Part shown: piece by piece, positions 5,761 to 56,085 of the stretch
Position numbering within the stretch: position 1 is the stretch's first letter
Layout: each line of letters starts with the position of its first letter
Assembly (NCBI GenBank): GCA_012845835.1
Contig: JABAKD010000017.1
Span: forward strand, 2,851,001-2,915,000
Length of the DNA: 64,000 bases
Source of the DNA: Undaria pinnatifida
Lineage: Eukaryota > Sar > Phaeophyceae > Laminariales > Alariaceae
Direction: 5' to 3'
Position numbers and translations under genes: made by a program
Notes under the pieces: model-generated
The model's database searches: none
What the model saw: only the letters and a program-made list of their open reading frames with translations
Told to the model about the DNA's origin: nothing

Positions 5761-5765
5761 GGTTG
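5761..5765. repeat. Target-site duplication, left
   Basis: GGTTG directly before the 5' LTR is repeated as GGTTG directly after the 3' LTR (11478-11482). A 5-bp duplication is typical of LTR retrotransposon integration. Confidence 0.9.
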
Positions 5766-10802: not shown

Positions 10803-10810
10803 AGGGAGGG
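10803..10810 (+). other. Candidate polypurine tract
   Basis: AGGGAGGG lies immediately 5' of the 3' LTR, where the plus-strand primer for LTR-element reverse transcription is expected. Confidence 0.6.
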
Positions 10811-17544: not shown

Positions 17545-17644
17545 CTAAGTCTCGATGAACAGTTCTTTGTCTTTGTAGTCCGGGAGACGCCCTTTGTACG
17601 TGTCGAACAGCCGTTTTACTTCTTTCACGTATATGGCGTGGTAC
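17545..17644 (-). CDS. DGAT2: Acyltransferase exon 7 (residues 287-319, stop)
   Basis: Acceptor TTCAG|GTAC restores the AAG lysine codon split by intron 6. Encodes YHAIYVKEVKRLFDTYKGRL then PDYKDKELFIET and stop, the C-terminus typical of the family. Confidence 0.94.
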
Positions 17645-20600
17645 CTGAACCGTAACGACCACATGAAGGAGGCGAACGGAGGAGGCGGAGGGGGGGGGGG
17701 GGGGGGGGGGCAAGCTTGAGCAAAAAGGAAAGAAAAAACAAGAAGATACGAATGAAACAAGATATTAGGCAATAAATAAAATGAAAAATAAAGAGTGCAC
17801 AAGAACCAAATACCAGATGGCGAGGAAAAGATAGAAAAAAAATGGAAAAAATGAGCCACTTGGCATGTTGCGCATTCTGTACTCGTACTAGTACGAAACT
17901 GTTGATTACTACCCGATTGAATATAAACGCGACCGATACAGTTTACTGTACCTCGTATATGCTGGTACGCAACAATCATACCTGTACACCGTACAAGGTT
18001 CCCCTCCGGGAAGTGCTGAGGGGAGTGGCGCAAGGACACATTATTATCACTACCGGACGCAATGACCATTTATTATTATTGCACATACAAAAAAACTTGC
18101 CCGGAAAAGTAATGAATTCGCATTTTACCCGCAGTAATACTTCATGGGTGTACTCAATAACAGTACTTTTAGCACTTTTTGGGTACTCGATATAACCGTG
18201 CCCACGACCGATCTATTGTTGAGAAAATACACACACCACCACTTCTTGACAACACACAAAATTTGTACACCGTATGATACGTATGATTTCGAGAAGAGCG
18301 TCACACGTCGAACTGCAGCTTAGGGACCGCCAGGAAGCGAGAAGGGGCACGTGTGGCGTGGGATGCGGCTTACTGTAGAATATTATGTAAAGAGCACTTC
18401 TTGATAACGAGGGAGCAAGAGGACAATACGTGACAGGCTATGACAAAAGCAACTCGCCGCCGTAAAGAGAGGATACGGCACGCGCACACGGTCCTGCCTG
18501 TAGCGTTTTGCTCTTCGCATGCTGCCTGCTGTCTGTCATTTGTGATCTTCGCAAAAGAAACAGAAAACAATGCCTCTGTGGACGTAAATGTATACGTAAG
18601 GATGGGTTGGTATCTAAATTAATACTATTACGAAGGTCCCTTATGTTTTCGAATCGATGGACACGCGCACCCAGAGCGGCAGCACAGCAGAAACGTTTGG
18701 TATGGCGGGGTAACAAACTATTCATATGACAGGCTCAGACACAAGCAACTCGACGAAGCATAGCGAGGACACGCCACGCGCACATAAATGGCGTCACCTA
18801 CCGTTGCTGTTGTGCGGCAGGGTTGTAGCGTTGCACTCTCCGCATATTGTCTGTTGTCTGTAATCTGCGATCTTACATAGTGTTGCCTACCACTGCTGCT
18901 GTGCGGCAGAGTTGTAACGTTGTGCTCGCTTGGTATGGTACGATATCATATACGAAGCACACCAACATGGACATAAATATAAGAAACGTTTGAGTACTAA
19001 TATGATATTCAAACGATCCTTACACTTTACGCCGGCATGTCACTTGACACAGAAGCAGCAGTAGCAGCAGCAGCGTTAGTGGCGTATAGGCGGGTAGAGC
19101 ATCGCAGGCTCCGATCAAAGCAATTAGCTACTACAACAGCAGCCACACGCGCATAAAGTTGAAGGCTGCTGCTGCTAGATTGCTGGGCGGCAGGATCGTA
19201 GCGTGGTGCTCTGTGCAACAATAGGGAAATGTACGTGTACCATCTACGTGCAGAAAAACCCGGTTTGCATCCAAATCTTACGTGCGTACAACGGGGGTAG
19301 GGGATGCGGAAACACCATCCCCGGGGATGTTGCGAAAACCCGGGGATTTGCCCCAAGTATGCCCAAGGCCAAACGAGGTTAAACGGTTTGCCACGCGCGA
19401 CACACTGCACGGATCGCGCCCGAAACTCCGGCAACGTGACGCCAACGGTCGAATTGTGCCCACCCCATCCTACGTTTCGGACAAAGGTGCCAGCACGAAG
19501 AGATGTGCCCGAAGAAAAGAAAAAAACGACAATTATACGTATACATATGCGTTTTGGTGTACCGCATGCCAACGGGACGCAAGAAAATTAAAAGCGAAAA
19601 CTCACTTGTCCACGTCCTCGTCTGAGGGAAACTCCTTCTTTGGGACACCAATCGGCTTACCCGTAACGCAGATCACCTGAAGGGAAACAAACAAAACCAC
19701 AAAAAACAACACAGCAACCCACGATTAGCGACAGACACAAATCACGATAGACACTGTTAACGCCGATACGTATGGTGAGATGAGAGGCGGAGGGGGTGTA
19801 TGGAGCGCCCAACAGCAGGCCAGGGTGTTCGACGGACAGACGGACGCACGGTTGAGGCGTTTTTGAGGGGGGGGGGGGGGCTTCGAAGTTACAAGGTACT
19901 TTGCGAGAAACGACTACAATAGCATGAGGTATGGTTCGCGTCAGGCACGATACGCGAGAGGCCCTATTGCCGCGGGTCAGGAACAGCGCGAGGAAACAAG
20001 AACGACAGACAAGGTTCGCACACTTCCCACACTACCCAGAAAGTTGCTCTCCCCCGGTGGCTATCTCCACCGCACCAGATACCCTACAACCTATCGCTCC
20101 CACGGGATGGTAAGGTAAGGTTGCTCTCCCCCGGTGGCTATCTCCACCGCACCTGATACCCTACAACCTATCGCTCCCACGGGATGGTCAGGAGGCAATG
20201 GGGAGTGGAGGGGGGGGTACTTTTCACGCGTAACCGTAGTCGTAGTCGTATGAGGGAGGGGGGGGAGGGGGGGGGGGGGGGTATGGACCGCCCGACGACA
20301 GTCCAGGCAGATCGACGGACACACAGCCGACGCCTTTTAGAGGCGGGTGGGGTGCGGAGCGAAAATCCTCGCAGGGCATCGGCATCGGCAGACCCCATCG
20401 CCCCCAGAGCCCTGAGGCGAGACGGTAAGAAAGCGGGGGGGGTGGGGGTGTACTCACTAGCATGCATGGACGGAGTCGTAAAACCATAGACCACCGCATC
20501 CCTACAACGCCGGGCCGGAGTACGTCGGGTTGTCACCGACCAGGCACACATGGGCACACATGGCTTGCACCAATGGTGAAACACCGTGAGTTGTTCTGCA

Positions 20601-23600
20601 GTCAAACGAAGCGAAGCTGCAACCTGCTATATATAACGACCGCTTGTGAAGCGGGGTTCAGCACCTCGTGCGCGTACTTGTGGGTTGCAGCATCTAGTGA
20701 CTTGCTATAGCTTTCTGGTGTGACCACTTCCAGAGACAGCGATAAGCATACTACCAGGTATGAAACTATCTCGTGGCTGCCTGGCCATAAACACAGCACC
20801 TGGTATGGTCACTTCCAGAGGCAGCGATGGGCATACTACGAAAATTCCCTAGTGGCCGCCTGACCATATACACACAACTTGGTGCGTGATACGAATACCC
20901 CCCTTGCACGGAGTTAAGGTTTATGACCCCGTACAAGACACCCTTGACAGACTTGCATTGGGTTGTTCTGCTTGTTGCAGCTGCAGCCGATTGCGTGGAA
21001 AAGGCAAAGGCGGCTGCGCTCGCCGTGCGTTTTCAGGAGACGGGTTACATGGTGGGCCCCGGAATTGGCAGCCCAACTTCGGAGGCCACGCTGTAACCTG
21101 TCCGTGCGAACGCGCTGCGAGCAATCGTCTGTTCATATTCCTCGATTATCAACTGGAATTACCACACGCAGACATGCTCAATACGGGTTATACAGGGGTG
21201 TGCTTAGTAAGGTGACTATTAATACGTATACAAGGGTGTGCTTAGTAAGGTGACTATTAATAATACTTTTACGGGTGTAATACTGGGTGATAAAGCTACG
21301 CAACTGTGGTCAAATATTAAAGTTACACAACTACCCGGATATAGCAGGTCGATCCCAGGGTACGTAGTACCTGGTATTATCGTGGGCACGGTATAAGGGC
21401 TCGGAAATAAATACAGGGGTACGTAATGACAAAATATTTACTACAATGGGATAATGTATCTTTTCAGGGGTTGGTAATTAATTGATTAATCAATAATATC
21501 ACAAGTTCTATCTTCAATTAAATTATTTAGCGTGTTAAATGACTGAATATAGAACACTACAAAATTGATGGTTTTGTCTGGGGGGAAGAAGGGGGTTGGT
21601 TTATAATTTTTCCTTTTTGGGGATTCGTGGAGACTGTATGATCTAACTCGGCCACCACCCGTGGTTACCGAAACAAAAAAATAAAACATGTACCGTGATT
21701 GTCTAGCTCACACAGTGAGTGGCGTGTTTTAAGCGTCGATGCCAACCGACGCCAACCCCAAGTGGAGGGTGTACTCATTTCATGCATAGCCGTAGTCATG
21801 ACCATAGACCCTCGCATCCCTACAATTCCGAGACAATCCTCCTGGGGGGTACTGGAACACGTAGTAGCAGCCCGGGAGGATGAACTGATTGACGGATACA
21901 CGGCAGTCGAGGCGTTTTTGAGGGGGGGAGGGGGGGGGGTATGCCTTGCAGGGCATCGGCAACGGCAGACCCCATTGCCGTCGCAGCATGGCACAGAGGC
22001 AATGGGGGAAGACGTGGGAGGTGAAACTACTGTACGTAGTATGGAGCACCCAATATAACCCAGACACATTGACGAACAGATAGGTACACGGTGGAGTCAT
22101 TTTTTACGGCGAGCGGGGTTACCTTGCAGGGCATCGGCACCGGCAGACCCCATCGCCCCCATAGGATAGTGATGCTCACGCCGAGCTTGCGGCTGATGTT
22201 CGTCAGCATCGGGTGTCGGATGATCTGTGCGCGCGGCAGCGACAAAAATGAAAACAAATAGCACGAATGTAACCGATGGCTGATGATTATGTTTCCTAAA
22301 TGTACAATCGTGTATTGCTTTCAACGAAACGTACAATCGTGTGTTACATACAAATTGTGAAGGGGTTAGGAGATGGAGGAGGCGGGGGGGGGAGCGGGGA
22401 GTTTGGCACCCCCCCCACCGCTCCCCTCCTAAACTCCCACACGCCATATATTCCATCTCCCAAACCGTGGAATTGTCGAAAGAGTAGCAGGGCACCCAAA
22501 ATTCCGCACGCCATCCACCTCACCTCCAAAACCGTGGTGTTGCCGAAATAGTAGCAGGGAATCACCTCGCTCCCCGTGCGCATTGCCAGCTTGATGAACC
22601 CCTTCCTCTTCCCCACGTACAACCTCTCCTCAGCAGGTGTGGACATAAACAGCTCCTACCGTATACCAGGTACCGTGATGAAACGTGGTTTGTCAGGCGT
22701 TAGTCAACAAGCAGGTGGGGCGGGGGAGGGGTGACACAGGAACGATTGCGGAGGGGGGAGGGGGGGGGGCTAAGGAGAGGGGGGAAGGGGGGTGATTCAG
22801 TTGGACTGAACCACCCATAATATCTGTATCCGGGGGGTGATTCAGTTGAATTAAACCACCCGTAATATCTGTATCCGTCCATCCGGGACAAAAACCTTTC
22901 CTCCGCAGACATAAACAGCACCTACCTGGTATATCCGTGTTAATAGTGCTCATTGACACGCCACACACTCACCTGAATCATAGACATGTCTCCCCACAAA
23001 TAACTATTGACACGCCACACACTCACCTAAATCATAGACATGTCCCCCCACAAATTAAATAATTTGTGGGGGGACATGTCTATGATTTAGGTGAGTGTGT
23101 GGCGTGTCAATGAGCACTATTAACACTGCTGTACGCACACAAACAACAAACACATACCCACCCAATTATGGGTACACCCTCATCTATACACAAAACCGCG
23201 GCGAAACGGCAATCAATCACCGAATCTCACTATCAGACAGCCCACGAATGAATTGGTACACAAATGCACCGATTGCAACGAGCACACACCTCGCACTGAA
23301 CAGCCATTGTAGTCAGACAAAAAGCGGCCTCGAGTTTCGCGCTCAACCTTGGCTCATTAAAAACTCCCCCGTTTTGTGTACTTGACCCCAACCCTTTCAC
23401 TACTGTATGCATCAAATGACACAAAACATACGTGGAAGTTCTAAATGTGTTAAGGACAAAGACGTCCGTTGACGGCGTAGTTTTGGCCCGTCAAGGTCTC
23501 TTTAGACTTTCAATACTACCATATGAGTAGTGCGGGGAGGTCCTTGACGGCCGTCCGTCAAGGGGCGAAAATGCCGTCGACCGACACTTTAGGTGAAGAG

Positions 23601-26600
23601 CGTGGAAAAAGCCACCGAAACAATCGGGGCTTCCACCGCAATCCCGCCGAGGTACAGGACGATGCTCGACGTGACACACAAACCACATAATATCTTCCAG
23701 CACGTACTCTGCAATGAAGAGGCTTACACGCCAAACACTAAAAACGGCCCCCATTAAAAAACTGTAATATTGTCTACGTTTTATCCCATGCCGACGTACC
23801 AGGTATCTGGCCCATAGCAGGTATCTGGTGCGCCAACACCTTTAGGATTACAGCCCCAATTCGGGAACCAATCACTTGAAATTAGAGTCAGATGTAGGTT
23901 TCTTCACACTGCAGTACTAAAAGGGGTTAAAAACCCTGTCACTAATGCAGAAATCAAAGCACACAAAAATCCACGTGTTTTGTTGGTTAAAATGCGTGTG
24001 ATGCGATTCCACTGGGGCTACGGAGAAGAAGGCCACGGAAATCATTGGGGCCTCACCGCAATCCCACCAACGTACAAGACGATGCTTGAGTGGACAAACA
24101 AACTACATCATTGCTCAAAACACGCACGGCGCAATGAAGAGATCGAAAACAAAAACAAAAAGATCTTTATTGCCCCCCCTTTTTCTCTACTGTATCCCAC
24201 AGCGAAGGCTACTGAAATCATTGCAGATCTCACCGCAATCCCACCGACGTACAAGACGAGGCTTGACGTTTTTAGGGTCTTGATCAGGCTGTGGCTCGAC
24301 GCCCCCACAAGGCCAAACATGCCGAAGACGTGTTTCAAGATGGGAATCCGTTGGATTACGCTCGCAGCGCATGTAGGAGGAGTTAGCCGCGGGGCCTGTG
24401 GTTGATCGCAGGATTTTTGGTATGGGTGGGTGGCACGGTTGTTGGTATTGGCAAAGTGGGTGGTCGTTGATGATGAGTGCTGGGTGTTGGGAGGGGGGGG
24501 GGGTGTTGGGTGTTGGCGTTGTTTCTGTTGGCGCCCGTGTTGGTGGTGTTGTTTGCTATTACGCAGTGTTGCGGTCGCGTACTGTTTGGCTACTGCTGTA
24601 GGTCAAGGGCTAAAGTAAAGGTGTTGGAAAGGGGGGGGTGTTGGCTATACAGTGTTGCGGTCGCGTACTGTTTGGCTACTGCTGTAGGTCAAAGGCTAAA
24701 TAAAGGTGTTGGGAAGGGGGGGGGGGTGTTGGTCGTGTTGTTTGCTATTATACAGTGTTGCTGTCGCGTACTGTTTGGCTACTGCTGTAGGTCAAAGGCT
24801 AAAGCTGAGACTAGACCTTCCACCTACTCACGGGCACACAGCACGCGGCTTGATTCGTCGTGTCATGGAAAAACGAAATAAAATGAAAAAACACGCACAA
24901 ACAAACCGAAACGCGGAAAAACAAAACCACAAAATCACGCACAACGAAAAACACAATATGTTAATGGACACATTTTCGTGTACTTGCGCGTTGACACTGG
25001 ATTCGTTCCCGGGGAGCACGTAGGTGCTTGCTATCGTATCGGAATCTGATGGTGTCGTATTGAGGGCGTTCGGCTAAAAACCTCCCACAAAAAAGTTAGT
25101 AATCGCGTACGTTGGCGGCTGTTGCTACGCTTCTTGCACAAAAAGAAGCGCGTCGCTCCCTTCTTTGTTTCTCTGGCTCGGTGCACGCCACAAACAAAGG
25201 AGAACTAGAAAGAAACAAAATAATGAACCAATGAGCCAACGAACCATTAGACTAACCATATACTAAAATTCTGAACCATAGCCAAACAAAATACAAACAA
25301 AAAAACACAAAAACGATCATGAACCGAACCCGTCAAATAGAGCAGTTGAATCCTCGTCCCCCAATCAAACAAGTGGCTGGTTCATGCAAAAGTAAATTGA
25401 CACATATCCACCTAATACCTGTAGGAATCCCGACAGACCAACAATTTCGTAGAAAATACTGTAGAGCTATCGGATTAGGCCTTTCGCGAGGAACAGTGAA
25501 AACGCGCGATCGATGTTTTAACACCTCGTAACGCTGAGTATCGTGCACCCGAACGGATAGTGGCAGGTAATAGTGACAGATCCGGGTATGTACCCGCCGG
25601 GTACCGGGGAGTAAACGAGCGGGGTACAGCCCTACAGCAGTGTGCCCGCGTGTTCTCTCTATGTAAAAAAAAGCAGAAGTTCATCCTACGGGGAGTGTGT
25701 TATCTTGTGGAATATACCGTACATGATCGAAGGTCTTTTCAGTTGCTCGTTTGCAACGGAAGCACCTCCATCATTTAGAAGATGCAACAAGGGCGTGTGT
25801 AGTAGCGCATACTCTGGCGACACCCGAGGGGTGTGCCATGACACATAGTCGGGTATGACCACATCAACTAGATACTGTACCCGGGAGTCCAAGAGTGTAT
25901 ACCGACAAAACACGCCCTTGAAGACGCACTGCAAGGCAAAATCTACCGCCCGGGAAATAACCCACGCGCAAGGAGAGGGGGGAACGGTGAGGGCTCCGCC
26001 GAGGATAGCGGCACACCAAATGCCGGGATGATCGACCCAAAACTATGTGGAGGAGAAAAAGAAAGAGAATATTCAGCGATTGGTTTCTGGTTTTGACATG
26101 CATATATTGCTATGTGTTTTGGGGCATACATATCATGTATAGAGCGGGCAAACCTCCGTTCATCATCATTCCTGTACTACTGTAGGACAAAAAAAAAGGT
26201 ACATGTATAAAAAACCCGAAGAGGCACAAACGCGCGAGCTGTTTAATATTTCCTCCTTCCTGACCCAATGGTTGATTTGGGGGTGGATTTCGCTGTTACT
26301 TTGTTAATAATTATATTTTATAGCGTATCGAAAGAGTTTCGATGCTCGTAGTGTACATCAAAATATCCGAAAGGCTTTTCATGGTGTGTGGAACCGAACC
26401 GCGTTCTTCAATTTTCCAAATTACACGGTGCCATGCGGCGCAGTTGTTAGTTTTTCGAAATGCTACGGTGCGGCTCGGTGGGGGGTTTATTCTTCAAGAA
26501 TCATACGGTGTGGTCCAGTGCAGTTTGAAGTTGCAGTGCAGTGCGGCTCGGTTAAAACCGGTCAACACCGCACCACACTGTACTTGCACCGTAGTAAACT

Positions 26601-29251
26601 ACCTGACTTCCTAGACCCCCGTTTTTTTTCACGAATTTTATTCTTGTAAGAGTCGAACGGCGCTCTTCGGTGAGGGTGTGTTCTTCAGAATCTTGCGGTG
26701 CGGTTTGGTGCGGACTGTAAATTGTCATGTTCCTATATACGTTGCGGTTCGGTGCAGTTTTATCAAAGGAGCACCGGTACGGTGCGGTGTACGGTTCCGT
26801 AAACACTCACCGAACCGAACGATATCGTAAGAAAAAACGCACCGTGAAAACCCTAAAACCATGCAGCTTTCGATCCGTGATATCGATCGCGTTTGGCTCT
26901 ACTTCCCTTGGCATCCTCGTATTACGTACGCTGAGATACTGGATCAAACAAAGCGTCGTATGTATTGATTTATCGAAGTCGTGCACTACAGATTTCATTT
27001 TTCGTTCTTCGGCGCCGGAGCATATCGACCTCTAGCCGTGTATTTCCAACAGAACGCGGCATTAAACCTGTTTTAAGAATGCTTATAAAATGGCGACAAA
27101 AAAAGGCGAGATCCATCATATCAAGCGACATGCAACAACGGTGAGAATCTGATTCGTAGCACGGGCCGGTTTGTCCCTCAAGCATGAGCGTAGGGGATGG
27201 ATAAGAACGGTCTCAACAGCTGACGATTGCGTAGAACGTTAGAAATATTTGGACGATGAGTGAGCTGGCGAACGTCATCATAACAACTTCAACCACAATA
27301 GTGATGGCGACAATAAATACAGCAATAACACCAATACCAAGTCTAACATCAACACCAACAACGAGATCGACGTTGACACTACCACAACAAAAATATAACA
27401 GTCACCACCACCACTACCAATTAACACCACCATCACCAAAAACAACATCAACACCCACAACACCAACAACAACGTCAGCAACGGCAAAACCGACACCGAT
27501 ATCAACACCAACACCAACACAACCACCACCACCGTCAACACTGCCGCCAACATATCTTCAAAACCTCACGTAATCAAAAACAGAACTAACCAGATGGATG
27601 CCCGCACAGATGCCGGCGATCGACATGACCCCATGTGGCTGTATGGCGTAGATTATCTTCTTGTCCTTCTCGATCTCCATCAGCTCTGCTTCCGAGGTTT
27701 CCATTACCTGCGTGGCGTTATCACGGTTTTGTAACGCCAAAATCGAGGAAATGTTAGTCAAAGGCGGACTTGCTGGACTGAGACACAACCGTAAATCGGT
27801 GGGGATGCAGACAAGAGATGGGGAGATTTATTGCAATGCCACACAAGCATTGGGTTGAAGAATTCAAGCTGGACCACGTGGATGTAGAGACAGACAAGTA
27901 GGACAAACGTCAAATATCAGCAACGTTAGAGCCCACACTACTACCATGGTAGTATTGTAGAGCTAAGCCTAGAAAGAGGGGAAGGCAGAGGCAGAGAGAG
28001 CGCGGTAGAGCTCCGTTTTTTCCCACGAACCGCTCAGAGCTAAGCATGTTACACGCCAAACTAAAAACGACAAAAAACAATCGCATGAAAGACCGCTTGC
28101 TCTTTGTTGCCCGCCCAACTCCACCTCATCCCCCGGCATTGTAAGGATGCGAGGGTTTATGGTCACACGACTACGGCCATGCATGAATATCGAGTACACC
28201 CTCCCCTCCCCCAACTCCACCTCCCGTTTCCCCGCGAGTTTCCGTCGACAGCATTTCCCCCCTCCCTCCGCCTCACTCCTCAAACTCTCCACATGTGCCG
28301 ACCAATCCACCGTCCCCTCGCCCAACAACGTTTAAATAGACTAAACCAATTCCCGCTTTGACCACCTGCTCAAAACTTTGTATCGCTTGGGCATGCACTT
28401 GAAGAACCTCTCACCCCTACCGACTCAAAATACTAAAAGCTCATTCCCGCCTTGCCATTTATTCAAGACCGTTGAGCTGGGGTACGCACTTGAACTACCC
28501 ACCATAACTCCGCCACCCCTTGGCGCTTTTACAACTGGAAACCCGTTTTGGGGACAATTTTACTTGTAGTTAGCATAGGGAGGGGTTTGGGGGATCTGAA
28601 GAGGTTCACGCCTCCAAACACCGCCCCCGCCATAACGCATCGAAACACTAAGAACCACTCCTCCCCCCTTCCCCTCCTCCCCCCCAAAGGCCTCAAAATA
28701 CTACAAACCCCTTCCTGCTCCGCTAGCTCACCTGCTAAAAATGTGGATTTTGAGCACGCACTTGAGAACTACCCCCATCGCCCCTCCCCCACTCCCCCCC
28801 CCCTAAACGCCACAGAAAAAAACGTGCCCGCCCCTTCACCTTCTCAAAATCTTGTACGAGTTTGAGGACACACTTGAAGAACGCCTCACCCCCGCCATCC
28901 ACCCCTCCTGTTCACATGCCACAACAAAAACGCCTCCGAACAAAAACCAGCTAAAAAGCACAACATCCTTCTCACCTGCTCAAAATCATGGACCTTGAGC
29001 GCGCACTTGAAGAACCACGTCGAAAGCAACTTGGGGAAGCGCTTGGAGGGCAGCAGCACCGACACAGCATAGGGCAGAAAGAGCACGGCCGCGGCCGCTT
29101 TGGAGACGAAGAAAAAGAGAAGTGCCACGGCGGGGAGCCAGAGAAGCGCGTAGAAGTAGCAGGCGCTGAAGAGGGAGACCGCGACGGTGCCGACGAAGCG
29201 CTCGAGGGGGGTCCCCGTGGTGGTCGGGGTGTAGGAAACTATTTTTCCCAT
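17545..29251 (-). CDS. DGAT2: DGAT2-family acyltransferase (diacylglycerol/monoacylglycerol O-acyltransferase type), 7 exons
   Basis: Exons in order: 29251-28976, 27707-27591, 24395-24234, 22655-22524, 22224-22123, 19676-19606 and 17644-17545. Together they give 960 nt and 319 residues, and all six introns are GT-AG. The family moves a fatty acyl group from acyl-CoA to diacylglycerol (or monoacylglycerol) at the endoplasmic reticulum, the last step of triacylglycerol synthesis. Visible features are a hydrophobic hairpin (about 21-67), QPHG at 115-118 in place of the usual HPHG, GGIAE at 182-186, KRKGF at 201-205, PCYYFGN at 218-224, WGRWGLPVP at 251-259, TGKPI at 268-272 and a C-terminal YHAIY...LFDTYK segment. 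Five introns are phase 0 and the last is phase 2. An upstream in-frame ATG at 29416 would add 55 low-complexity residues; I prefer 29251. Exact acceptor choice (DAG or MAG) cannot be read from sequence. Confidence 0.93.
17690..17710. repeat. 21-base G run (C run on the gene's sense strand)
   Basis: Uninterrupted G from 17690 to 17710. On the sense strand of the acyltransferase gene it is a C-tract 46-66 nt upstream of the exon 7 acceptor, so it may serve as polypyrimidine tract. Confidence 0.85.
18425..19215. repeat. Diverged repeated segments in intron 6
   Basis: Segments near 18425-18560, 18725-18930 and 19035-19215 share GACAGGCT.AGAC..AAGCAACTCG, CGCGCACA, and GCTGCTGTGCGGCAGGGTTG followed by TAGCGTTG. 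They are separated by about 300 bp. No protein is supported. Confidence 0.6.
19606..19676 (-). CDS. DGAT2: Acyltransferase exon 6 (residues 264-286)
   Basis: Acceptor TTCAG|GTG, donor GACAA|GTGAGT (phase 2). Encodes VICVTGKPIGVPKKEFPSDE then DVD, the conserved VxGxPIxVPKxExPTxEEV segment. Confidence 0.92.
20043..20188. repeat. 77-bp tandem duplication in intron 5
   Basis: GTTGCTCTCCCCCGGTGGCT... ending CGCTCCCACGGGATGGT occurs at 20043 and 20120, with one visible base difference (CACCAGATA/CACCTGATA). Confidence 0.92.
20280..20412 (-). repeat. Diverged copy of the exon 5 3' boundary with intron flank (copy b)
   Basis: Reads LWGRWGLPMPMPCE on the minus strand, very close to LWGRWGLPVPMPCK, followed by GAG|GATTTT, so the donor is lost. 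It sits 1.7 kb beyond exon 5. Confidence 0.82.
21198..21262. repeat. 37-bp tandem duplication in intron 5
   Basis: GTGTGCTTAGTAAGGTGACT followed by ATTAATA occurs twice in direct succession. Confidence 0.88.
21842..21984 (-). repeat. Diverged copy of the exon 5 3' boundary with intron flank (copy a)
   Basis: Reads QWGLPLPMPCK on the minus strand, followed by AAG|GCATAC, so the donor GT has become GC. Its intron-side flank (GACGGATACACGG...GAGGCGTTTTTGAGGGG) recurs around 19810-19880, 20290-20345 and 22060-22105, so the duplicated unit spans exon edge and intron. Confidence 0.82.
22123..22224 (-). CDS. DGAT2: Acyltransferase exon 5 (residues 230-263)
   Basis: Acceptor CACAG|ATC, donor AAG|GTAACC. 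Encodes ...NISRKLGVSITILWGRWG and LPVPMPCK, the conserved SRKLxVSxxxxWGRxGLPxP block. Intron 4 before it is only 299 bp. Confidence 0.92.
22431..22497 (-). repeat. Tandem copy of the exon 4 3' boundary
   Basis: A 67-bp direct duplicate adjoining the true boundary (22498-22564), lying just inside intron 4. It reads PCYSFDNSTVWE, against PCYYFGNTTVLE. The donor has decayed from GAG|GTGAGG to GAG|ATGGAA. Confidence 0.88.
22524..22655 (-). CDS. DGAT2: Acyltransferase exon 4 (residues 186-229)
   Basis: Acceptor GGTAG|GAG, donor GAG|GTGAGG. Starts with the glutamate of GGIAE and encodes ELFMSTPAEERLYVGKRKGF and AMRTGSEVIPCYYFGN, matching the conserved KRxGFxKLAxxxGxxLVPxYxFG block. Confidence 0.94.
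22790..22877. repeat. 44-bp tandem duplication
   Basis: GGTGATTCAGTTG...CCACCC.TAATATCTGTATCCG occurs twice in a row, between the decoy exon 4 edge and exon 4 itself. Confidence 0.85.
22896..22931 (-). repeat. Diverged copy of the exon 4 5' boundary
   Basis: The minus strand reads TACCAGGTAG then GTGCTGTTTATGTCTGCGGA, resembling the true acceptor region (GGTAG|GAGCTGTTTATG at 22655). Continuing, it would read LFMSAEERF, against LFMSTPAEERL in the exon. Confidence 0.75.
22939..23126. repeat. Perfect 106-bp palindrome plus an extra direct copy of the arm (intron 3)
   Basis: 23006-23057 and 23060-23111 are perfect reverse complements around a 2-nt centre (AA). A third, near-identical copy of the arm lies directly to the left (about 22939-23001). 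The outer flank GTGTTAATAGTGCTCA on the left matches the right flank in inverted orientation. The arms contain AGGTGAGTGTG, a donor-like string on both strands. Confidence 0.93.
23608..23722 (-). repeat. Diverged copy of the exon 3 3' boundary (copy c)
   Basis: Reads SSIVLYLGGIA on the minus strand, with donor GCG|GTGGAA. It is 420 bp beyond copy b and shares about 115 bp with it. Confidence 0.85.
24029..24141 (-). repeat. Diverged copy of the exon 3 3' boundary (copy b)
   Basis: On the minus strand it reads SSIVLYVGGIA followed by an intact donor GCG|GTGAGG. It lies about 177 bp beyond the true donor. Similarity to the true boundary covers roughly 24205-24269, and similarity to copy c covers the whole 113 bp. 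Confidence 0.85.
24234..24395 (-). CDS. DGAT2: Acyltransferase exon 3 (residues 132-185)
   Basis: Acceptor CCACAG|GCC, donor GCG|GTGAGA. Encodes TPPTCAASVIQRIPILKHVF...ASSHSLIKTL...VLYVGGIA, the family's conserved block ending in the glycine-rich motif. The glutamate that completes GGxxE is the first codon of exon 4. Confidence 0.93.
24520..24806. repeat. Three tandem copies of an 85-101-bp unit in intron 2
   Basis: CAGTGTTGCGGTCGCGTACT starts at 24566 and 24651, and again with one change at 24752. Each copy is followed by TGGCTACTGCTGTAGGTCAA and a G-run. The array lies about 130 bp upstream of the exon 3 acceptor in gene orientation. Confidence 0.9.
26386..26830. repeat. Degenerate CGGTGCGGT repeat region in intron 2
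   Basis: Variants of CGGTGCGGTTCGGTGC and TTCTTCAGAATC recur at irregular spacing, partly in inverted orientation (GCACCGTACC-like). It is either an old tandem array or a decayed element. Confidence 0.6.
27270..27560. repeat. Degenerate ACC/AAC trinucleotide tract in intron 2
   Basis: Repeated ACAACACCAACACC-like units. It is open in several frames on both strands because of its composition, and it starts about 30 bp past the exon 2 donor. Confidence 0.8.
27591..27707 (-). CDS. DGAT2: Acyltransferase exon 2 (residues 93-131)
   Basis: Acceptor ACGCAG|GTA, donor CTG|GTTAGT. Carries the acyltransferase active-site block as YAIQPHGVMSIAGIC. The usual first histidine of HPHG is glutamine; plant DGAT2 proteins have EPHS here, so the first position tolerates change. 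Confidence 0.92.
28361..28886 (-). repeat. Four diverged copies of the exon 1 3' boundary in intron 1
   Basis: Copies at about 28835-28886, 28727-28771, 28454-28500 and 28361-28408 resemble the true boundary (28971-29016). Read on the minus strand they begin like TTCTTCAAGTG and end at AGCAG|GT or AGAAG|GT. The copy at 28835 would read FFKCVLKLVQDFEK, against FFKCALKVHDFEQ in the exon, with donor AAG|GTGAAG. The copy at 28727 keeps GCAG|GTGAGC but has lost one base. The copy at 28361 has GCAG|GTGGTC. Confidence 0.8.
28976..29251 (-). CDS. DGAT2: Acyltransferase exon 1 (residues 1-92)
   Basis: Starts MGKIVSYTP and ends KVHDFEQ; the donor is CAG|GTGAGA. It holds both predicted membrane segments (two hydrophobic stretches separated by about SK at 50-51), which anchor this family in the ER membrane as a hairpin. 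The 3' edge has four diverged copies in the following intron. Confidence 0.9.
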
Positions 29252-39690: not shown

Positions 39691-39699
39691 ATAAGAACC

Positions 39700-39872
39700 A
39701 CAACAACGACAGCAGCGGCAACGAGAATAGCAGCGGCAGCAGCGCGGCAGCAGCAGAAACAGCAGCAGGAGCAGGAGAAGCAACATCAACATCAACAGCA
39801 CAGCAACAGCAGCAGCAACAGACAGCAGTAGCAGCAACAGCAGTAGCAGCGGCTGCAACAGCAGCAATATTG
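39700..39872 (+). repeat. CAG/CAA-rich tract in the probable 5' leader of the CCT gene
   Basis: Runs of AGCAGCAGC, AACAGCAGC and GCAGCGGC units. It lies 110-285 bp upstream of the chosen start codon. In the start-codon frame there is a stop at 39940, so the tract is not part of the modelled protein unless an intron intervenes. Confidence 0.6.
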
Positions 39873-39984
39873 AGCATCTAACGGCGATCGCTGTTTGTAC
39901 ATCGACGACAACGTTCCATACCGAGAGGGCGAGGGCTTGTAGAGCTGGAGACCGTTCAACAATTCCGCGTTAGCGGTGGCGGAC

Positions 39985-40049
39985 ATGGTGGAGGTACTGG
40001 AGACGCGGCGTGCGGTGGCGGAGTGGAACCCCGACATGGAGTTGGAAGG
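39985..40049 (+). CDS. CCT gene exon 1 (residues 1-21)
   Basis: ATG at 39985, MVEVLETRRAVAEWNPDMEL, donor GAAGG|GTGAGT (phase 2). The frame is open back to 39943, so translation could also start in an unseen upstream exon; a second ATG is at codon 18. Confidence 0.65.
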
Positions 40050-43000
40050 GTGAGTGCGTTGCAACCAAGATTTCGATTGGAAGATTGAGATTATTGTATG
40101 TGTTTTGACGATAAGATTTTGTACCGGCATTTCGACAGGCGTGCATTTTTTTATTTTCTTTCACACGCGAGACTAACCCGTTTGGGACCCATGTACGGCG
40201 ACCAATAAAACCGATTAGTGCAATGTCAAGCGACTGGGAAGAGCGCACGCAGTACAGGTTTTGCCGTACTGTGCGCGCGCGTGGTGCGGCTCTCCTTGCA
40301 ATGCAATGCAAGCATGCCTCCTCTCCCGCCAGCTCGGGTTGCTTCTTGTGGCCGAGGCTGTATCGTCACTTTTTTTGTCGCTTCTCTCTGCACCCATTTA
40401 AGGGGTCTATAATGAAGAGATTGGGTACCACTGGCAAGTGGCGAGTGAGGCGCAAAACGTACTGGGCACGAAAAAGCACATCGCAAGCCTCAAACCAACC
40501 AATCTCTAGCTTTGCGACTGAGAAAAACGTTTCAGATCTCTGTCGGGTACGTACGAGTTACGTGCCCGTGAAACTGCTGTGTGTCTTACTCTCTGTCACG
40601 ATTATTTGCTCGTGAACGTCAACTACAAAAGTATAATCTCCGCCAATAAGAAACGCCTACCTCCTGCAGGGGTGAAACCCCCTCGTGACAATAGCCTTGA
40701 GCGGAGGGTATCATATTCCAGGTACCTGGTACCAGGTGGGATTAGTGTAGCGTTCGCCGCTGAGCAGGATTTCGTAAGCCAACGAGTTGTTAACGTCACG
40801 AAAAAAAATTAGCCGCGATTTCTTGCTGGCTGCTTCTTGCTTCACGTATGGCATCATCATAACTTGCATTGGTAAGAGTAGATGGCCTGAGAGAAACAAC
40901 AATGCGGCAGCGATTTGCGTGAGAGGGTTCACTGATGTTGGCGTAACATGAAAGTCGCCGGGTGTTGGAGATTGCCCTTGAGATAAGAAAACTGCGCGTG
41001 GCTCGATTGTTTGCTGTGTGAGGCGATGAAGGGCCTATCGTGTGCCGGGTATCCCGGGGGGCGTGTAGTCATGGTATCATGCATGGCCGTAGCCCGTAGC
41101 ACCTGGCACCCCGACATTCCGGGGCGGAACACGCCGGGTTTCAACCAACCAGGCCGGGGGAGGGGGGTAATAACTCTGTAGCAGCGGCGGCGGCAACAGT
41201 CATAGACCATCCGGGCCTCGCGTTGTTGCGTCGTGCGTCCACCGACTGCTGTATTTTGGAGTTGGCGTTATTTTGATGATTGTATTGTGGTCGTGGTGGT
41301 TGTGGCAGTGGTGCTGTTGTTTTGGTGTTTTCGTTATTTGGTTGTTAGCAGCCGCTTGAGCGGTGATGGTGGCGTCGTTGAGGGAAAAGTTACGAGTATG
41401 GTGACAGTACTGATGATGGTGACGTCGTTGACCAGATAATGTTGGTGATGCTTTGGTTTATACCGACGGTGGTTAGGAGGGTGGTGGTAATGACGTTGGC
41501 AATGGTGATGGTGGTGATGACCGAAGAGCGCCGGGTGTGATGACTGTGCGGGTAACACTTGGAGTTGGTAACTTACACTGAAAATGCGAATATGCTGATG
41601 TTGACGTTGAGGAGAACGGTCATGGTTTTGGTGCTACTGGTGCTGCCGGCGTTGATGGTGACGATGGCCCACGACGACGATCGTGACGGTGGCAATGACG
41701 ATGATGATGATACTGCTGGTTATATTTGTTGAGTTAGGTTAGCGGTTTTGTTTCGTGACTTCATTATCTATTTTCCATGTTTGAATGCACCCCATGCGCT
41801 TCTTTGGGCACCGACGACAAAGGTGTTACTCTCGGCGCTATCAATAATGACTTTTCACTGATTATCATGGATACGATCGTAATGTTTATTGATACTTTTT
41901 AGTGGTCATTTGTTGGACGTTTTTGGTTCATGGATTTGTTTTCATGGTTTGTTTGATGATGGCAGGTGCGACGCGGAGAAGGCGGCGGCCCTCCTGCTGG
42001 CGGTGGCCCCGGGACGCCACTCGTTCGATGCCACTCAGCGACACGAGGTAAGGAACTGACCGCGCGAGGCATTCTTGTGCTGTTTCCGCCATACGGAGAG
42101 CACTACGTGGAAGAGGAATGCTGCTGGCAGGCATTAATATGCCGTACAGGGTACCACGACCACAATCGTTTGTTGCTGCTGTTGACGGCGTTGGTTTTGT
42201 ATCCGCCGGCGGACGGCTAAACATGGAGCTCACGCTCACCACGCTTTCGCGAATGCGTCGTGTGTTGACGTGGTGCTGTTGCTGTCGCCTAGATCGTCGT
42301 CATGATTGGTACCCCAAGCACCTGGACGATGATCTGTTGATGCTCCTCGGAGTATAAATACGTGTTGTACTCTTTGCTAACGTGTTCCACATGAGCTTAT
42401 AGCGTAAAGTGTTAATCGCCTGGTTCATCCAGACAACGTGCAACTTTTCAACAACGGAAATTTTTCTTCAAAGATCCTTCCCCCCCCCCCCCCCCCCCAA
42501 ACCCCCGCTTCCGCCTGATTGGCTCCTGCAAACAAAAACTGGACGGTATCAGGCGTTCGTATCGAACGGTGGAACAAGCGTCGGCTCCCCGATCGCCAAC
42601 ACCAACGCTGCCGCCGACAAAGAGAGCGGTGGCGATGGTGATGGTGGTAACGATGGTCGTATCGATGTTCAAGGCGAGGGCGGCTGTATGAGCCCACCGC
42701 GGCCCGCGTACGGCTGCTCGCCACGAACGCCGCAGTCGCAACCGTCGCCGCTGATGCAGTCGCAGCTGCAGCAGCAGCAGCAGCAGCCCGTGCCGATGTC
42801 GTCGTTGCGAGATTCTCCCGGACAAGCAGGAGACATTTTTGCGCAGGCAGAAGGGTCGGTGAACGCGCGAAATGATGATGACGCCGCTTCGGCGATGGTC
42901 GAAGTCGGAACCCGAGGGGGAGGAGGAGGAGGGGGGGGGTTGGAGAATTCGAACGTACAACGCGAGGTAAGAAACGAGCAAGGGTCAAGGGTTTCACTCC

Positions 43001-49000: not shown

Positions 49001-52000
49001 TGGGGGGGGGAGACGGGGAGGAGGCTGAGGAGGGGGAGGGGGGCATTTGCGTCTCGCTCCCGCACATGCTGTCAAAGTGAGTGGTGCGGGGGGGTTGCGG
49101 GGGTAAGGTAGTTGTGGCGGGTTGAGTTGGATTTTTTGTGATGGCGCTGTTGTGGTGGGTTCCACACGTAAAGTTTTTTCGGAAAAGGTTTCGCGTGTTC
49201 GTCATCTCGCCAACTTAAGATGGATACGTTTTTGTTGTGTGTGTGCGTCTTTTTTGTTTTGTTTGTGTGTTTCTTTTCTGCTGGCCACCACTGTCGTGTC
49301 TTCGTTGTTGATTAGTTGTGTCCTTTTTGAATGTGCATGACGGGGTTCCCCCCCGGTGGTCCAAGAGTAGGCCGCGTGACGTTTGAGGTCGAGATCGTAG
49401 GTTCGAATCTCACAAGAGAATATTTCTTGCCAAATCGACAGGCCGAAAGCGCGAGAGCGTGATTGGCGAATTCGATGCAAGTCGACGAGCATGTAAAGCT
49501 GAAAAGTGAGAACGCTGAACCATATTATGCGCTATAAAAATGAGGGCAAGTCCCAGGGAGGAGAAGGGAAGGCACTCGCGACCGCGCTTGTCGAAAAGCT
49601 CGCTGAGGATAAAACCTCTCACGACTTGAGCTGCAGAGTAAAAGTGATGACTAAAAGAAAATGAAAAATGATCTTCATACCACACGACGACCACCACCCT
49701 CGCCCCCACCCCACCCCACCTTACCCCGACCCTTCCTTCCAACCTCAACTCCACCCCCATCGTCAACCCCTATCACGTCACAAGTGGCATAACTTGACGT
49801 GACCCGTGATTTTTCTGGACGTGACTTATGGCAAATATTACGTGGAAGTGACCCGTATCGTGTCTTGACGTACCCGTTTCGTGTCTGGACGTGAGAACCG
49901 CAACACGACTTGACGTGACCCACGACATGCCTTGACTCGTTCCGTGACATGACTTGACGTCAACCGTACCATGACTTGACCTCACCCGTAATGGCAATGC
50001 AGGTATGCGGACATGTATAACAAGAACGGACGCATTGGCATCTACACGAGGCAGGAGCGCGAAGCTATCATCGCGCGTTTCAAGCGAAAGCGAGGTCGCA
50101 GAGTCTGGAAGAAAAAAATCAGGTACAAGCACGAATTAAATAATCGCAGGAGTTTGGCTGCTCTGGCCACTTTTCACGGTTCGCGTCGGGCCAGGGTGAC
50201 CCGGCCGGTCCCACGAGCATTAAAACCTTCCTGACCCGACCCGACCCGACCCGACCCGTGAGATGTCGCACACCTCCTGTCCCGCTCTACCCGCGAAATT
50301 TTGAAGACTGCCTGACTCGACCTGCGGGTCGGGTGGGGCGTCGTGAAAAACCCGGAAAATAACGAAGAAGAGCCATGCTCCCGGGGGGGGGGGCGCATGC
50401 GGTTGGTCCCAACTGTATCTGACGTACGAGGTTCCGTAACTGAGGACACGGAAAGAAAGAAAAAAATGCCGTGCCACGGTGGGAGGAGGTGTTGTTTTTG
50501 CCCGCAGTTATGTCTGACTGAAGGGGCTGACTCAGCGGAAGAACTGCCCAACAATGTTGCTGGAAAGCCATGCCATTGTTGGGACTCCTTTGTGTTTTAC
50601 AGTATTGCTCAGCGAGTTGTTAATTTTCCTAAACGTAAGTCCCCTTTGTTGAGCTGGGTAAGGCAGGAGATCCTGTAAACCGGCTCCCCGCCGTCCCCCG
50701 TCCCCTCACCTACCCGCCCCCCACCTTCTACCAAATCCCCCCCCCCCCTCCCCCTCTTTATCCTGATAGATGGTGGCCGCAGACGAAGAAACGTGCCGGG
50801 GATAGGATAAGCAAACAGTTTCTATGTATTATATGGAAGAACCGTAAAGAGCGCCCAAATGTTGGAGGTGTCTCTATTAGGAGTGCGAACGGTGCTCCGT
50901 CTCGAAAGGAATGCGTGGTCAATGGCCAAATGACTAAAGCTAGCAAAAAATGAGTACCCCCCCCCCCCCCCTCCGTAAAACAGCCGCAAGAATGACCCCG
51001 CCCCTCCCTAATCCCCCCCCCCCCACCTACCTTGTCATGTATAACTGCCGCAAGAACCTGGCTGACCAGCGCATGAGGGTTAAGGGTGTTACCTCCCCCC
51101 TCCCCCCTCTCCCACCGCCTCCGTAATCCTACGTCCCCCACCCTCCACGTTTTCAGGTATTACTGGCGTAAGAACCTAACAAGCGCATGAGGGTTAAGGG
51201 TCTTATCCCCCCCCCCCCTATTCCCGCCTCCGTAATCCTACCTCCCCCCCCCATCAGGTATAACTGCCGCAAGAACCTCGCTGACAAGCGCATGAGGGTT
51301 AAGGGACGCTTCGTGAAGATGTCGCCGGAGCAGCGGGCCGCGCTCAAGCTCAAGCAGAAAGCGTTGCGGAGCGCGCGAGCTGCCGCCGGTGCCGCTGGAA
51401 GCCGGGGAGGAGCCAGCGGGCAAACCGATAGCAGGTGGGAAGTGCAAGTGTTGGAGTGTGGAGGTGTGCCATCGATGGTGGAGGTAGTGGGTAGTGATGG
51501 GGGTGGTCGGGGGGGGGGGGCGGAGGCGTGTGGCGGGGGGTCGAGGTGGTGCTGGTAGCAGGTTCGGGAGGGTGGCGGGGAGTGGGGTGGGGCAGGAGGA
51601 GATGGTGGTGGTGGAGGTGGTGCGGTGGATGGTTGGCAGTGGTGGCGGTTGGGGGAGAGGGGGGGGTGGTCGTTCCGAATGGGGTGGTGGGAGTAGGCGT
51701 GGTGGTGGTGGTGGTGGAGGAGGCGGTGATGGGGGGGGTGTTGCGGGATTGACTACGATGGCTGTGACGGGGATGGTCGAAGCTGTTACTCGTTGTCGTG
51801 AAAGACCAAAAGCAGGTTCGAGGAGCTCGTTGGTTATAAGGTGCTGCCCACTGGCCTGCATAGTCACTCGCTCTTCGCTGTTAGCTGGCGTCGCCCGCCG
51901 CTGAAAGCATTTTTCGTGGATTTTTTTCTTGGTCTTATCTCGACACGCTTTTTTTCTTTTTCTTTTTTTGTCCTTTCCGTCCCCCCACCCCCCCTTCCAT

Positions 52001-52297
52001 CCCCTTCACAGCATGGATATGGACCTCCTCGGTAGCGAAGAAATCAGCAGCGAGACGGGCAGCGGCGCGACTGCTGCGGAAGGCTTCGAAGACGACATGG
52101 AAGCGGTCGTACCCGGCGAAGACGAGGGGGAGGAGGAGGAAGAGGAGGAGGTAGAAGAGGAGGAGGAGGAGGAGGAAGAGGAGGAGGACGAGGACGGACG
52201 GGGCTCAGGAAGGGGAGGAGGAGGAAGCGGAGGAAGAGGAGGGGGAGCCCCCGAGGAGCCACTAAAGCGGATCCGCCGTCACAGTATCGCGTACTGA
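39985..52297 (+). CDS. CCT-domain protein, probable transcriptional regulator, 10 exons
   Basis: Exons: 39985-40049, 41966-42047, 42553-42966, 43673-43849, 44211-44810, 46925-46993, 48757-49076, 50003-50122, 51258-51434 and 52012-52297. Together they give 2310 nt and 769 residues. All nine introns are GT-AG and the phases match at each junction. Residues 592-636 form a CCT motif: REAIIARFKRKR, then KKKIRYNCRKNLA and KGRFVK, across the exon 8/9 junction. In plant CONSTANS/TOC1-type proteins this motif binds DNA with NF-Y partners and enters the nucleus. No B-box or receiver domain is seen. Other regions are polyQ (about 122-127), a His/Gln-rich stretch (about 343-393), Gly-rich linkers, a glutamate run (about 711-736), an RG-rich stretch and a basic tail. 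Exon 3's acceptor and the start codon are the least certain points. The target and process controlled are unknown. Confidence 0.9.
41233..41720. repeat. Degenerate GTT/GAT/GGT-rich tract in intron 1
   Basis: Recurrent units such as GGTGATGGTGG, GTTGATGGTGACG and GATGATGATGAT. The composition keeps frames open on the opposite strand. Confidence 0.6.
41966..42047 (+). CDS. CCT gene exon 2 (residues 22-49)
   Basis: Acceptor GGCAG|GTGC completes the glycine split in exon 1. Reads CDAEKAAALLLAVAPGRHSF, donor GAG|GTAAGG (phase 0). Confidence 0.75.
42553..42966 (+). CDS. CCT gene exon 3 (residues 50-187)
   Basis: The acceptor taken is TATCAG|GCG, the first AG after a C-tract at 42480-42498. The donor is GAG|GTAAGA (phase 0). 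Low-complexity protein with a polyQ run followed by PVPMSSLRDS and a glycine run. The frame is also open back to 42409. Confidence 0.72.
43673..43849 (+). CDS. CCT gene exon 4 (residues 188-246)
   Basis: Acceptor GCTTCAG|GGT, donor CAG|GTGCGG, phase 0 at both ends. Serine-rich, ending SMPSMLESLVHLATQ, an amphipathic helix-like end. Confidence 0.8.
44211..44810 (+). CDS. CCT gene exon 5 (residues 247-446)
   Basis: Acceptor GTCAG|GAA, donor CGG|GTGAGT, phase 0. Begins ELRTIDGEIEARERACAR, then proline/serine-rich, an alanine run, and a His/Gln-rich stretch encoded by a degenerate CAC-CAA tract (44500-44650), which is the likely reason for length variation. Of the frames open through this tract, only this one joins in phase on both sides. 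Confidence 0.82.
46925..46993 (+). CDS. CCT gene exon 6 (residues 447-469)
   Basis: A 69-nt exon. Acceptor TTGCAG|GCC, donor GAC|GTGAGG, phase 0. Reads ALSPSYSSRQGGSRIEAIKE then ELD. Confidence 0.72.
48757..49076 (+). CDS. CCT gene exon 7 (residues 470-575)
   Basis: Acceptor TTGCAG|GGA, donor TCAAA|GTGAGT (phase 2). Glycine-rich first half, then RDRVYREDLFGSVEDAEALI, an acidic stretch, and SLPHMLSK, which joins directly to the CCT exon. Confidence 0.82.
49347..49675 (+). mobile_element. Possible tRNA-derived SINE in intron 7
   Basis: CGGTGGTCCAAGAGTAGG and, about 30 nt on, TAGGTTCGAATCTCAC resemble the A and B boxes of a tRNA gene. The acceptor and T stems do not pair properly, so it is not a working tRNA. 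About 250 bp of unrelated body follow, ending in an A-rich stretch (ACTAAAAGAAAATGAAAAAT). No clear target-site duplication was found. Confidence 0.4.
49785..49990. repeat. Degenerate CTTGACGTGACCCGT tandem array in intron 7
   Basis: About ten variants of an 18-24-bp unit (CTTGACGTGACCC, CTGGACGTGACTT, CATGACTTGACGTCAACCGT). One contains a perfect TGACGTCA at 49955-49962. The array ends about 12 bp before the exon 8 acceptor. Confidence 0.8.
50003..50122 (+). CDS. CCT gene exon 8 (residues 576-615, first half of the CCT motif)
   Basis: Acceptor ATGCAG|GTAT, donor ATCAG|GTACAA (phase 2). Encodes YADMYNKNGRIGIYTRQERE, then AIIARFKRKRGRRVWKKKI. Confidence 0.93.
50232..50260. repeat. GACCC pentamer run
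   Basis: Five GACCC units in a row, shortly after the exon 8 donor. Confidence 0.85.
50765..50953 (+). repeat. Copy B of a small repeated ORF (WWPQ family) in intron 8
   Basis: A 63-codon frame reading RWWPQTKKRAGDRISKQFL, IRSANGAPSRK and ending in TGA followed by GTACCCCC. It is the intronic relative of 60347-60781. Frame and stop are preserved despite many base changes. Function unknown. Confidence 0.75.
50977..51230 (+). repeat. Diverged copies of the exon 9 5' boundary in intron 8
   Basis: Copies of AACTGCCGCAAGAACCT followed by AAGCGCATGAGGGTTAAGGG occur at about 51046-51092 and 51158-51205, before the true one at 51258. A vestige, AACAGCCGCAAGAATGACC, lies at about 50981. The 51046 copy has lost the acceptor (CATG for CAGG). 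The 51158 copy keeps TTTTCAG|GTATT but lacks five bases, which would shift the frame. Confidence 0.9.
51258..51434 (+). CDS. CCT gene exon 9 (residues 616-674, second half of the CCT motif)
   Basis: Acceptor ATCAG|GTAT completes the arginine split in exon 8. Reads YNCRKNLADKRMRVKGRFVK, then MSPEQRAALKLKQKALRSAR. Donor AGCAG|GTGGGA (phase 2). The basic helix-like segment after the CCT motif may extend DNA binding. Confidence 0.93.
52012..52297 (+). CDS. CCT gene exon 10 (residues 675-769, stop)
   Basis: Acceptor TTCACAG|CATGG completes a serine. Encodes MDMDLLGSEEISSETGSG, a glutamate-rich run, an RG/GG-rich stretch and the tail PLKRIRRHSIAY. The GAG/GAA run is a likely site of length variation. 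Confidence 0.88.
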
Positions 52298-55978: not shown

Positions 55979-56085
55979 ATGTCTTGTACCTGGCAATGTC
56001 TTGTACGTGGCAATGTCTTGTACGTGGCAATGTCTTGTACGTGGCAATGTCTTGTACGTGGCAACGTCTTGTACGTGGCAGTCTC
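55979..56085. repeat. 18-bp minisatellite, about six copies
   Basis: AATGTCTTGTACGTGGCA repeated head to tail, with few changes (TACCTGGCA in the first, AACGTCTTG in the fifth). The 18-bp period keeps frames open. There are no unique spacers. Confidence 0.95.

Follow-up and report, generated by a model that had tools for sequence, protein, structure and literature searches.

In a 64,000-nt stretch of Undaria pinnatifida contig JABAKD010000017.1 (the window, to whose positions all coordinates below refer), a sequence-only reading had noticed that six exon-intron boundaries of two genes recur as duplicates inside the adjoining intron. Two origins had been proposed for them: general local tandem duplication, or the retention of decoy splice sites that tune splicing. 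Here we ask which of these the copies point to, and whether boundaries are special compared with other segments of the introns in which the copies lie.

Boundary copies in DGAT2 and the CCT-motif gene

We aligned seven boundaries, i.e. the six named ones and the donor of DGAT2 exon 2, with 45 nt on each side, to their own introns on the direct strand, using 200 dinucleotide shuffles per boundary. At least one diverged same-strand copy, reached by 0 of 200 shuffles, was found for six of the seven. The claimed duplicates of the six named boundaries are thus present, each with a copy above all 200 shuffles. The clear copies show identities of 73 to 93% over 43 to 100 aligned columns.

The DGAT2 gene, and with it all copies of its boundaries, lies on the minus strand of the window. 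Exon 1 (28976..29251, donor after 28976, placed by reading frame and splice consensus) has three clear donor copies that keep the GT and are reached by 0 of 200 shuffles (z = 7.5 to 9.9), located at 28727..28772 (40/48 identical, z = 9.9), 28836..28882 (37/47, z = 7.8) and 28363..28408 (37/46, z = 7.5). A possible fourth, at 28435..28499, has lost the GT (42/65, z = 3.1) and, with 2 of 200 shuffles reaching its score, is not clearly above chance. The donor of exon 2 (27591..27707) has no copy in its own intron in the same alignment. Exon 3 (24234..24394, donor after 24234) has an uncertain start, which was placed by hand and differs between the two gene models used; two copies of its donor keep the GT, at 24028..24089 (55/63 identical, z = 23.6) and 23608..23672 (49/65, z = 15.2). 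Exon 4 (22524..22655; PF03982 match at 22518-22679) is copied at both ends: the acceptor copy at 22893..22933 retains the AG (36/47 identical, z = 7.3), and the donor copy at 22428..22478, also seen as a self-match at offset 67, has lost the GT (37/51, z = 10.9). For exon 5 (22123..22224, from the gene model) both donor copies have lost the GT. The one at 21897..21979 (63/83 identical, z = 16.7) carries a GC, read at a site where the aligner opens a gap; the other lies at 20367..20409 (40/43, z = 16.7), and a third alignment is entirely intron-side (z = 2.9, 3 of 200 shuffles). No boundary copy was found for exons 6 (19606..19676) and 7 (17545..17644).

The second gene bears a CCT motif, as seen from a profile match to PF06203 at 51253-51321 in its exon 9 (51258..51434, plus strand; its end at 51434 is placed at a possible donor judged by eye). 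Two plus-strand copies of the exon 9 acceptor were found. The first, at 50997..51083 (71/87 identical, z = 17.9), has lost the AG and contains a weak PF06203 match at 51034-51087 (E = 0.003, under the cut-off); the second, at 51102..51197 (79/100, z = 17.2), keeps the AG. A weak third alignment (z = 3.7) is reached by 1 of 200 shuffles. The statement that some duplicates keep a splice signal and others have lost it is hence borne out, the former being the exon 1 and exon 3 copies, the exon 4 acceptor copy and the second CCT copy, the latter the exon 4 donor copy, both exon 5 copies and the first CCT copy.

Each duplicate had also been described as spanning part of the exon, the splice site and some intron. 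In the alignments the duplicated stretches do hold both exon and intron sequence, and a wider set of 28 copies, at 15 boundaries, has 8 nt or more on either side; the description has to be narrowed for the second exon 5 copy and some exon 1 copies, whose intron part is just 1 to 5 bases long. When all 12 DGAT2 boundaries were subjected to a 60-mer test, five were positive (donors 4/6, acceptors 1/6), against 47 of 164 interior tiles at z > 4.

Boundaries compared with intron interiors

To place these copies in context we used conserved genes chosen by protein family, blind to the copy pattern. Nine regions were first aligned, and three poor models were kept out of the counts: C34, C19 (low score) and C27, the last left out by hand though its score lies above the later cut of 300. 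Exons shorter than 60 bases or below 28% identity were left out by rule, and the FtsH genes enter no count. The minimum intron length was 200 bases for the six-gene, direct/inverted and signal-retention counts and 300 bases for the offset profile and the one-sided test. A G-rich repeat exon of C32 was dropped after its alignment had been viewed, so that introns 11 and 12 of this gene are absent from the signal-retention, ten-gene and one-sided counts (changing the ten-gene donor count from 7/83 to 6/82) and present in the direct/inverted count and the offset profile.

Diverged boundary copies in adjoining introns recur in these genes. Under a rule that the copy must span the site, six donors and three acceptors are copied in the 82 introns of ten genes; among interior tiles the count is 269 of 1559. 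Local tandem duplication is indeed common in these introns, as had been supposed. If one random interior tile is drawn per intron, about 10.25 are copied on average, and the observed count is reached with P = 0.98 for donors and 0.9996 for acceptors. Acceptor copies are fewer than the interior tiles would predict (P = 0.0018; for donors, P = 0.058). Part of this shortfall arises because a boundary can be copied to one side only; what exceeds this geometry in acceptors leaves room for selection. In a one-sided matched test on 11 genes, 24 of 258 donor and 13 of 258 acceptor segments are copied, compared with 279 of 2199 interior segments downstream and 284 of 2177 upstream. Neither the ten-gene count nor the 11-gene test reveals an excess of boundaries over interior segments, and the notion that boundaries are special relative to random intron segments finds no support in these samples. 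The presence of the pattern in two genes speaks against a single accident, as had been argued, yet it does so because the process is general and not because boundaries are special.

The hits are unevenly distributed. C32 and C33 between them account for all six donor hits of the ten-gene count, while donors are copied in 0 of 11 cases in C22b and 0 of 9 in C36, genes whose interior rates are 22% and 15%. In DGAT2 alone, 6 of 15 one-sided 40-mers at the donors are copied, versus 29 of 230 in the interior; its donors thus look rich in copies, though this is the gene in which the pattern was first noticed. An earlier six-gene count at z > 4, made without the spanning rule, gave 11/58 for donors, 4/58 for acceptors and 171/783 for interior tiles, with exon middles at 5/58 against the downstream and 1/58 against the upstream intron. 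In the offset profile, donor-side 40-mers match in 8, 8 and 9 of 80 cases from 40 bases exonic up to the site, which is as high as in the nearby intron, with a dip at +20 (4/80); centred 80 bases inside the exon, 1 of 66 matches. A bias of donors over acceptors, which appears as a trend in several counts (9/80 versus 2/80 at offset 0), was dropped, being not significant per intron (13/86 versus 8/86, Fisher p = 0.35).

The copies are mostly direct and lie near their source. At z > 4, interior tiles are copied in direct orientation in 343 of 1564 cases and in inverted orientation in 92 of 1564; for donors the corresponding counts are 10 and 1 of 83, for acceptors 5 and 0 of 83. Compared with the introns of other genes, donor-side 40-mers give 0 or 1 match at each offset. 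Chance or low complexity is ruled out as the source by the shuffles and, for the donor-side 40-mers, by these other-gene controls; assembly error is unlikely because the copies are 68 to 93% identical. Tandem duplications also occur inside DGAT2 introns away from boundaries, at 24564..24723 (86-base unit) and 20043..20192 (77-base unit). Among the arrays found, with a lower limit of 30 bases set for the unit, units reach about 260 bases. Thirteen arrays have at least 95% matches, twelve of about two copies and one of three. In the twelve near-identical two-copy arrays the length differs from that of two units by -31 to +5 bases, the program trimming array ends; with at most 5 bases in excess, long tracts of homology at the junction are excluded, whereas a few homologous bases may be present.

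Divergence of the copies and their probable origin

Across the 28 copies, the difference from the real boundary is 24.3% on the intron side and 13.9%, 12.5% and 23.4% at first, second and third codon positions, respectively. Subtracting the summed differences at first and second codon positions from the intron difference leaves -0.022 (bootstrap 95% interval -0.117 to 0.054). Judged from the sequences, this is the pattern expected from a constrained exon beside a drifting copy, and the copies look unconstrained.

It is improbable that the copies are decoys, i.e. pseudo-donors or pseudo-acceptors kept near the real site by selection and tuning splicing or intron retention. A GT or AG is present in 18 of 28 copies, and some copies look as strong as the real site (GTGAGA in a C33 copy, GTGACA in the real donor); however, 12 of 19 donor copies keep the GT where the flanks predict 12.5 (strictly 11 of 19, one being scored as kept through an alignment gap only), and 6 of 9 acceptor copies keep the AG where 5.6 are expected. 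Of 54 sites in the core dinucleotides, 9 are changed (16.7%), which is close to the value for first and second codon positions (13%). No conservation of the splice signal beyond that of the flanks was found in the 28 copies, and boundary copies are not enriched in the 10-gene and 11-gene counts. The second of the proposed origins is thus not supported, while in so small a sample selection on a few copies is possible. A process targeted to boundaries, in which R-loops or splicing-linked damage at donors would raise duplication there, would fit the DGAT2 donors (4/6 positive) and the raw surplus of donors over acceptors in the one-sided test and at offset 0. We consider it very unlikely, since donors do not exceed the one-sided interior rate and the asymmetry is not established per intron. 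That the copies are degenerate whole-exon duplications, decayed alternative exons, is extremely unlikely. The weak CCT-motif match in the first CCT copy would agree with it, as would two PF02786 matches in C32 that overlap in their profile positions and lie about 0.8 kb from each other; the latter point is doubtful, the two being consecutive exons in the gene model used here. Against it, exonic 40-mers fall from 8/80 at 40 bases inside the exon to 1/66 at 80 bases inside, and the alignments, made with flanks of just 45 to 60 bases, take in one boundary and not both.

Very probably, then, the copies are what is left of old tandem duplications, small and local, which are frequent in the sampled introns; the first of the proposed origins is supported by the interior rates, the direct orientation and the neutral-like divergence. 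Small tandem duplications would arise often in introns, and where the unit straddled an exon edge the duplicate would carry the exon end, the splice site and the intron start. With the outer site, presumably the one used by splicing, still serving, the mRNA would be unchanged, and the inner copy inside the intron would drift neutrally and lose its signal by chance. At the DNA level, repair of staggered breaks is the putative mechanism.

Relation to known duplications and meaning

Small tandem duplications have been ascribed to staggered-break repair, according to the passages of PMC8355091 drawn on here, which cite Vaughn and Bennetzen 2014. The duplications here share with these that they are small and direct, and they may also have little junction homology; the pathway is suggested here by the shape of the arrays. 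In a potato RdRp gene, a tandem genomic duplication that crosses an intron-exon boundary gave rise to a new intron, which is visible in RNA reads (PMC4974935). Common to both cases is the direct local duplication of a segment with an intron end and an exon start; a further tandem duplication, of 83 bases, lies within an intron of the potato gene. Unlike there, the copies here are diverged, lie within an existing intron and are known from DNA alone. Where introns are gained through AGGT tandem duplication (Rogers 1989; Hellsten et al. 2011, as cited in PMC4974935), spare splice sites are likewise supplied by tandem duplication, whereas no new intron is seen here. Boundary-crossing tandem duplication is hence already described in that source, and what may be new is its commonness here.

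The observation stands, yet it is a rather ordinary one: the spare sites decay like the rest of the intron, and what seems to be a mark of regulated splicing can arise simply as a by-product of intron growth. Of the interior 60-base tiles in the genes sampled, 17 to 22% recur as direct copies within their intron; claims of duplicated splice sites in such genomes therefore need an interior-segment control. More speculatively, it could be, though we hold it rather doubtful, that introns here lengthen largely by small near-blunt tandem duplication, steadily making spare splice sites beside the real ones, that donor-side spares are tolerated better than acceptor-side ones, and that in the course of evolution this pool feeds exon-border shifts and alternative splicing. 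If the rate holds genome-wide, this genome would be well suited to observing how tandem duplication remodels introns and provides raw material for new splice sites.

Duplicated boundaries in the DGAT2 and CCT genes

The window, placed on contig C23 of an assembly totalling 511 Mb, contains a DGAT2 gene on the minus strand (29251 to 17545; seven exons read, the start of exon 3 being uncertain), whose exon 4, likewise on the minus strand, carries a PF03982 match, and a second gene with a CCT motif (PF06203). All six boundaries for which the sequence-only reading had claimed duplicates in the adjoining intron are indeed duplicated there, each with at least one copy reached by 0 of 200 shuffles. 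The clear copies show 73 to 93% identity across 43 to 100 aligned columns; three belong to the DGAT2 exon 1 donor, two each to the exon 3 and exon 5 donors, one each to the exon 4 donor and exon 4 acceptor, and two to the CCT exon 9 acceptor. A fourth copy for exon 1, a third alignment for exon 5 and a third copy for CCT do not stand out clearly from chance as judged by the shuffles. Moreover, the DGAT2 exon 2 donor has no copy in its own intron, and a 60-mer test gave a negative result for 7 of 12 DGAT2 boundaries.

Other repeats occur in the same window. Two direct repeats of 668 bases (5765-6432 and 10810-11477; 99.1% identical, 5 kb apart) may represent the terminal repeats of a young LTR element. 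A short dispersed repeat is found in DGAT2 introns and elsewhere (20435-20514, 21761-21830, 28132-28212, 41056-41154, 61538-61764), and a minisatellite at 55978-56080 consists of about six nearly identical 17-base units.

Boundaries and intron interiors in conserved genes

Conserved genes were located by Pfam family, 270.5 kb of sequence was taken, and gene models were built with a purpose-written dynamic program that made spliced alignments against E. coli proteins. The resulting exon ends show a splice consensus near CAG|GTGAG and CAG|G; this lends the models only partial support, since the program itself favours sites of this kind. One gene on contig C32 has two PF02786 matches with overlapping model positions (C32:2657170-2657277 and 2658043-2658246); exons were modelled at or close to each of them, which makes it doubtful that one is an intronic copy.

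Plain alignments reveal boundary copies in the sampled genes as well, which are thus not confined to DGAT2 and CCT. The local duplication rate varies by gene, from 5% (C22) to 29% (C33) of interior tiles among ten genes. In these ten genes with 82 introns, site-spanning copies were found for 6/82 donors, 3/82 acceptors and 269/1559 interior 60-base tiles; drawing interior tiles at random, one from each intron, yields about 10.25 on average. Since a boundary can be copied to one side only, a one-sided comparison is fairer. Here, 40-mers from 11 genes with 86 introns matched in 24/258 cases at donors and 13/258 at acceptors, compared to 279/2199 downstream and 284/2177 upstream for the interior. 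Along the gene, the donor-side profile runs from 1/53 at 100 bases inside the exon over 8, 8 and 9 of 80 at -40, -20 and 0 to 4/80 at +20 and 12 to 13/80 at +220 to +300, while the acceptor-side profile falls from 16/80 at -160 to 2/80 at the site, with 4/80 at +20 and 5/80 at +40; therefore neither site stands higher than the intron. By either comparison, the check proposed in the sequence-only reading yields no boundary excess, and in this sample boundaries are no more copied than the intron interior. On the contrary side, DGAT2 donors look rich (6/15 versus 29/230 interior), DGAT2 being the gene first noticed, and all 6 donor matches in the 82-intron count fall in two genes out of ten. Acceptors lie below the interior expectation (P 0.0018), with geometry as part of the cause; per intron, donors (13/86) and acceptors (8/86) do not differ significantly (Fisher p 0.35).

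Local duplication and the fate of the copies

Compared with their own intron (z>4), interior tiles gave 343/1564 direct and 92/1564 inverted matches, and donor-side 40-mers gave 0 or 1 match per offset in introns of other genes; the duplication is thus local and mostly direct. Tandem arrays with units of at least 30 bases and fewer than 3.3 copies amount to 70 entries in 334.5 kb, part of which overlap. Matches reach 95% or more in 13 of them, 12 with about two copies and one with three. Measured against two full units, the 12 two-copy arrays differ in length by -31 to +5 bases; thus, their junctions have no long shared tract, a few bases of homology being possible. This shape would fit staggered-break repair, described in mammalian cells (PMC8355091), which we would infer here. 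In DGAT2 intron 3, a 54-base tandem duplication (within 22952-23110) adjoins an apparent inverted self-copy, read by eye, a potential long hairpin.

A tandem duplication over an exon edge would place two splice-site copies in a row; if the outer site stayed in use, as we infer, the protein would be unchanged and the inner copy would become intron. Acceptor duplicates would be less tolerated should splicing favour the first AG downstream of the branch point. The counts lean this way, the acceptor deficit being partly geometric, but the per-intron difference from donors is not significant.

Divergence was assessed for 28 copies of 15 boundaries, DGAT2 included (its exon sides, at 10.1%, stand outside the codon classes). 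Copies differ from the real boundary by 24.3% on the intron side and by 23.4%, 13.9% and 12.5% at third, first and second codon positions, respectively. One drifting copy and one constrained exon would predict this pattern, intron and third positions reflecting two drifting branches and first and second positions mainly one; subtracting the summed values of positions 1 and 2 from the intron value gives -0.022 (95% -0.117 to 0.054, bootstrap over boundaries). Retention by selection as splicing decoys, the other explanation offered by the sequence-only reading, would predict fewer losses of the splice dinucleotide than are seen: it is kept in 12/19 donor copies (one counting only via an alignment gap) versus 12.5 expected from the flanks, and in 6/9 acceptor copies versus 5.6. 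Decoy retention thus finds no backing in these 28 copies, a small number with which selection on single copies would be compatible. General local tandem duplication, the reading's first alternative, is favoured, as the copies are local, mostly direct and also present in other genes.

Significance of the boundary copies

In the potato RdRp gene, a new intron is attributed to a tandem duplication spanning an intron-exon boundary (PMC4974935), whereas the copies in the window lie inside existing introns. Titles and abstract openings, which cover the literature partially, gave no other account of boundary-crossing duplication in brown algae or as a way for introns to grow. In conclusion, the boundary copies are real, recur in other genes sampled from this genome and most likely reflect frequent small tandem duplication, of which they would be a neutral by-product. 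One intronic CCT exon copy retains a CCT motif match at 51034-51087, below cut-off (E 0.003), and this residual match is a trap for gene prediction.
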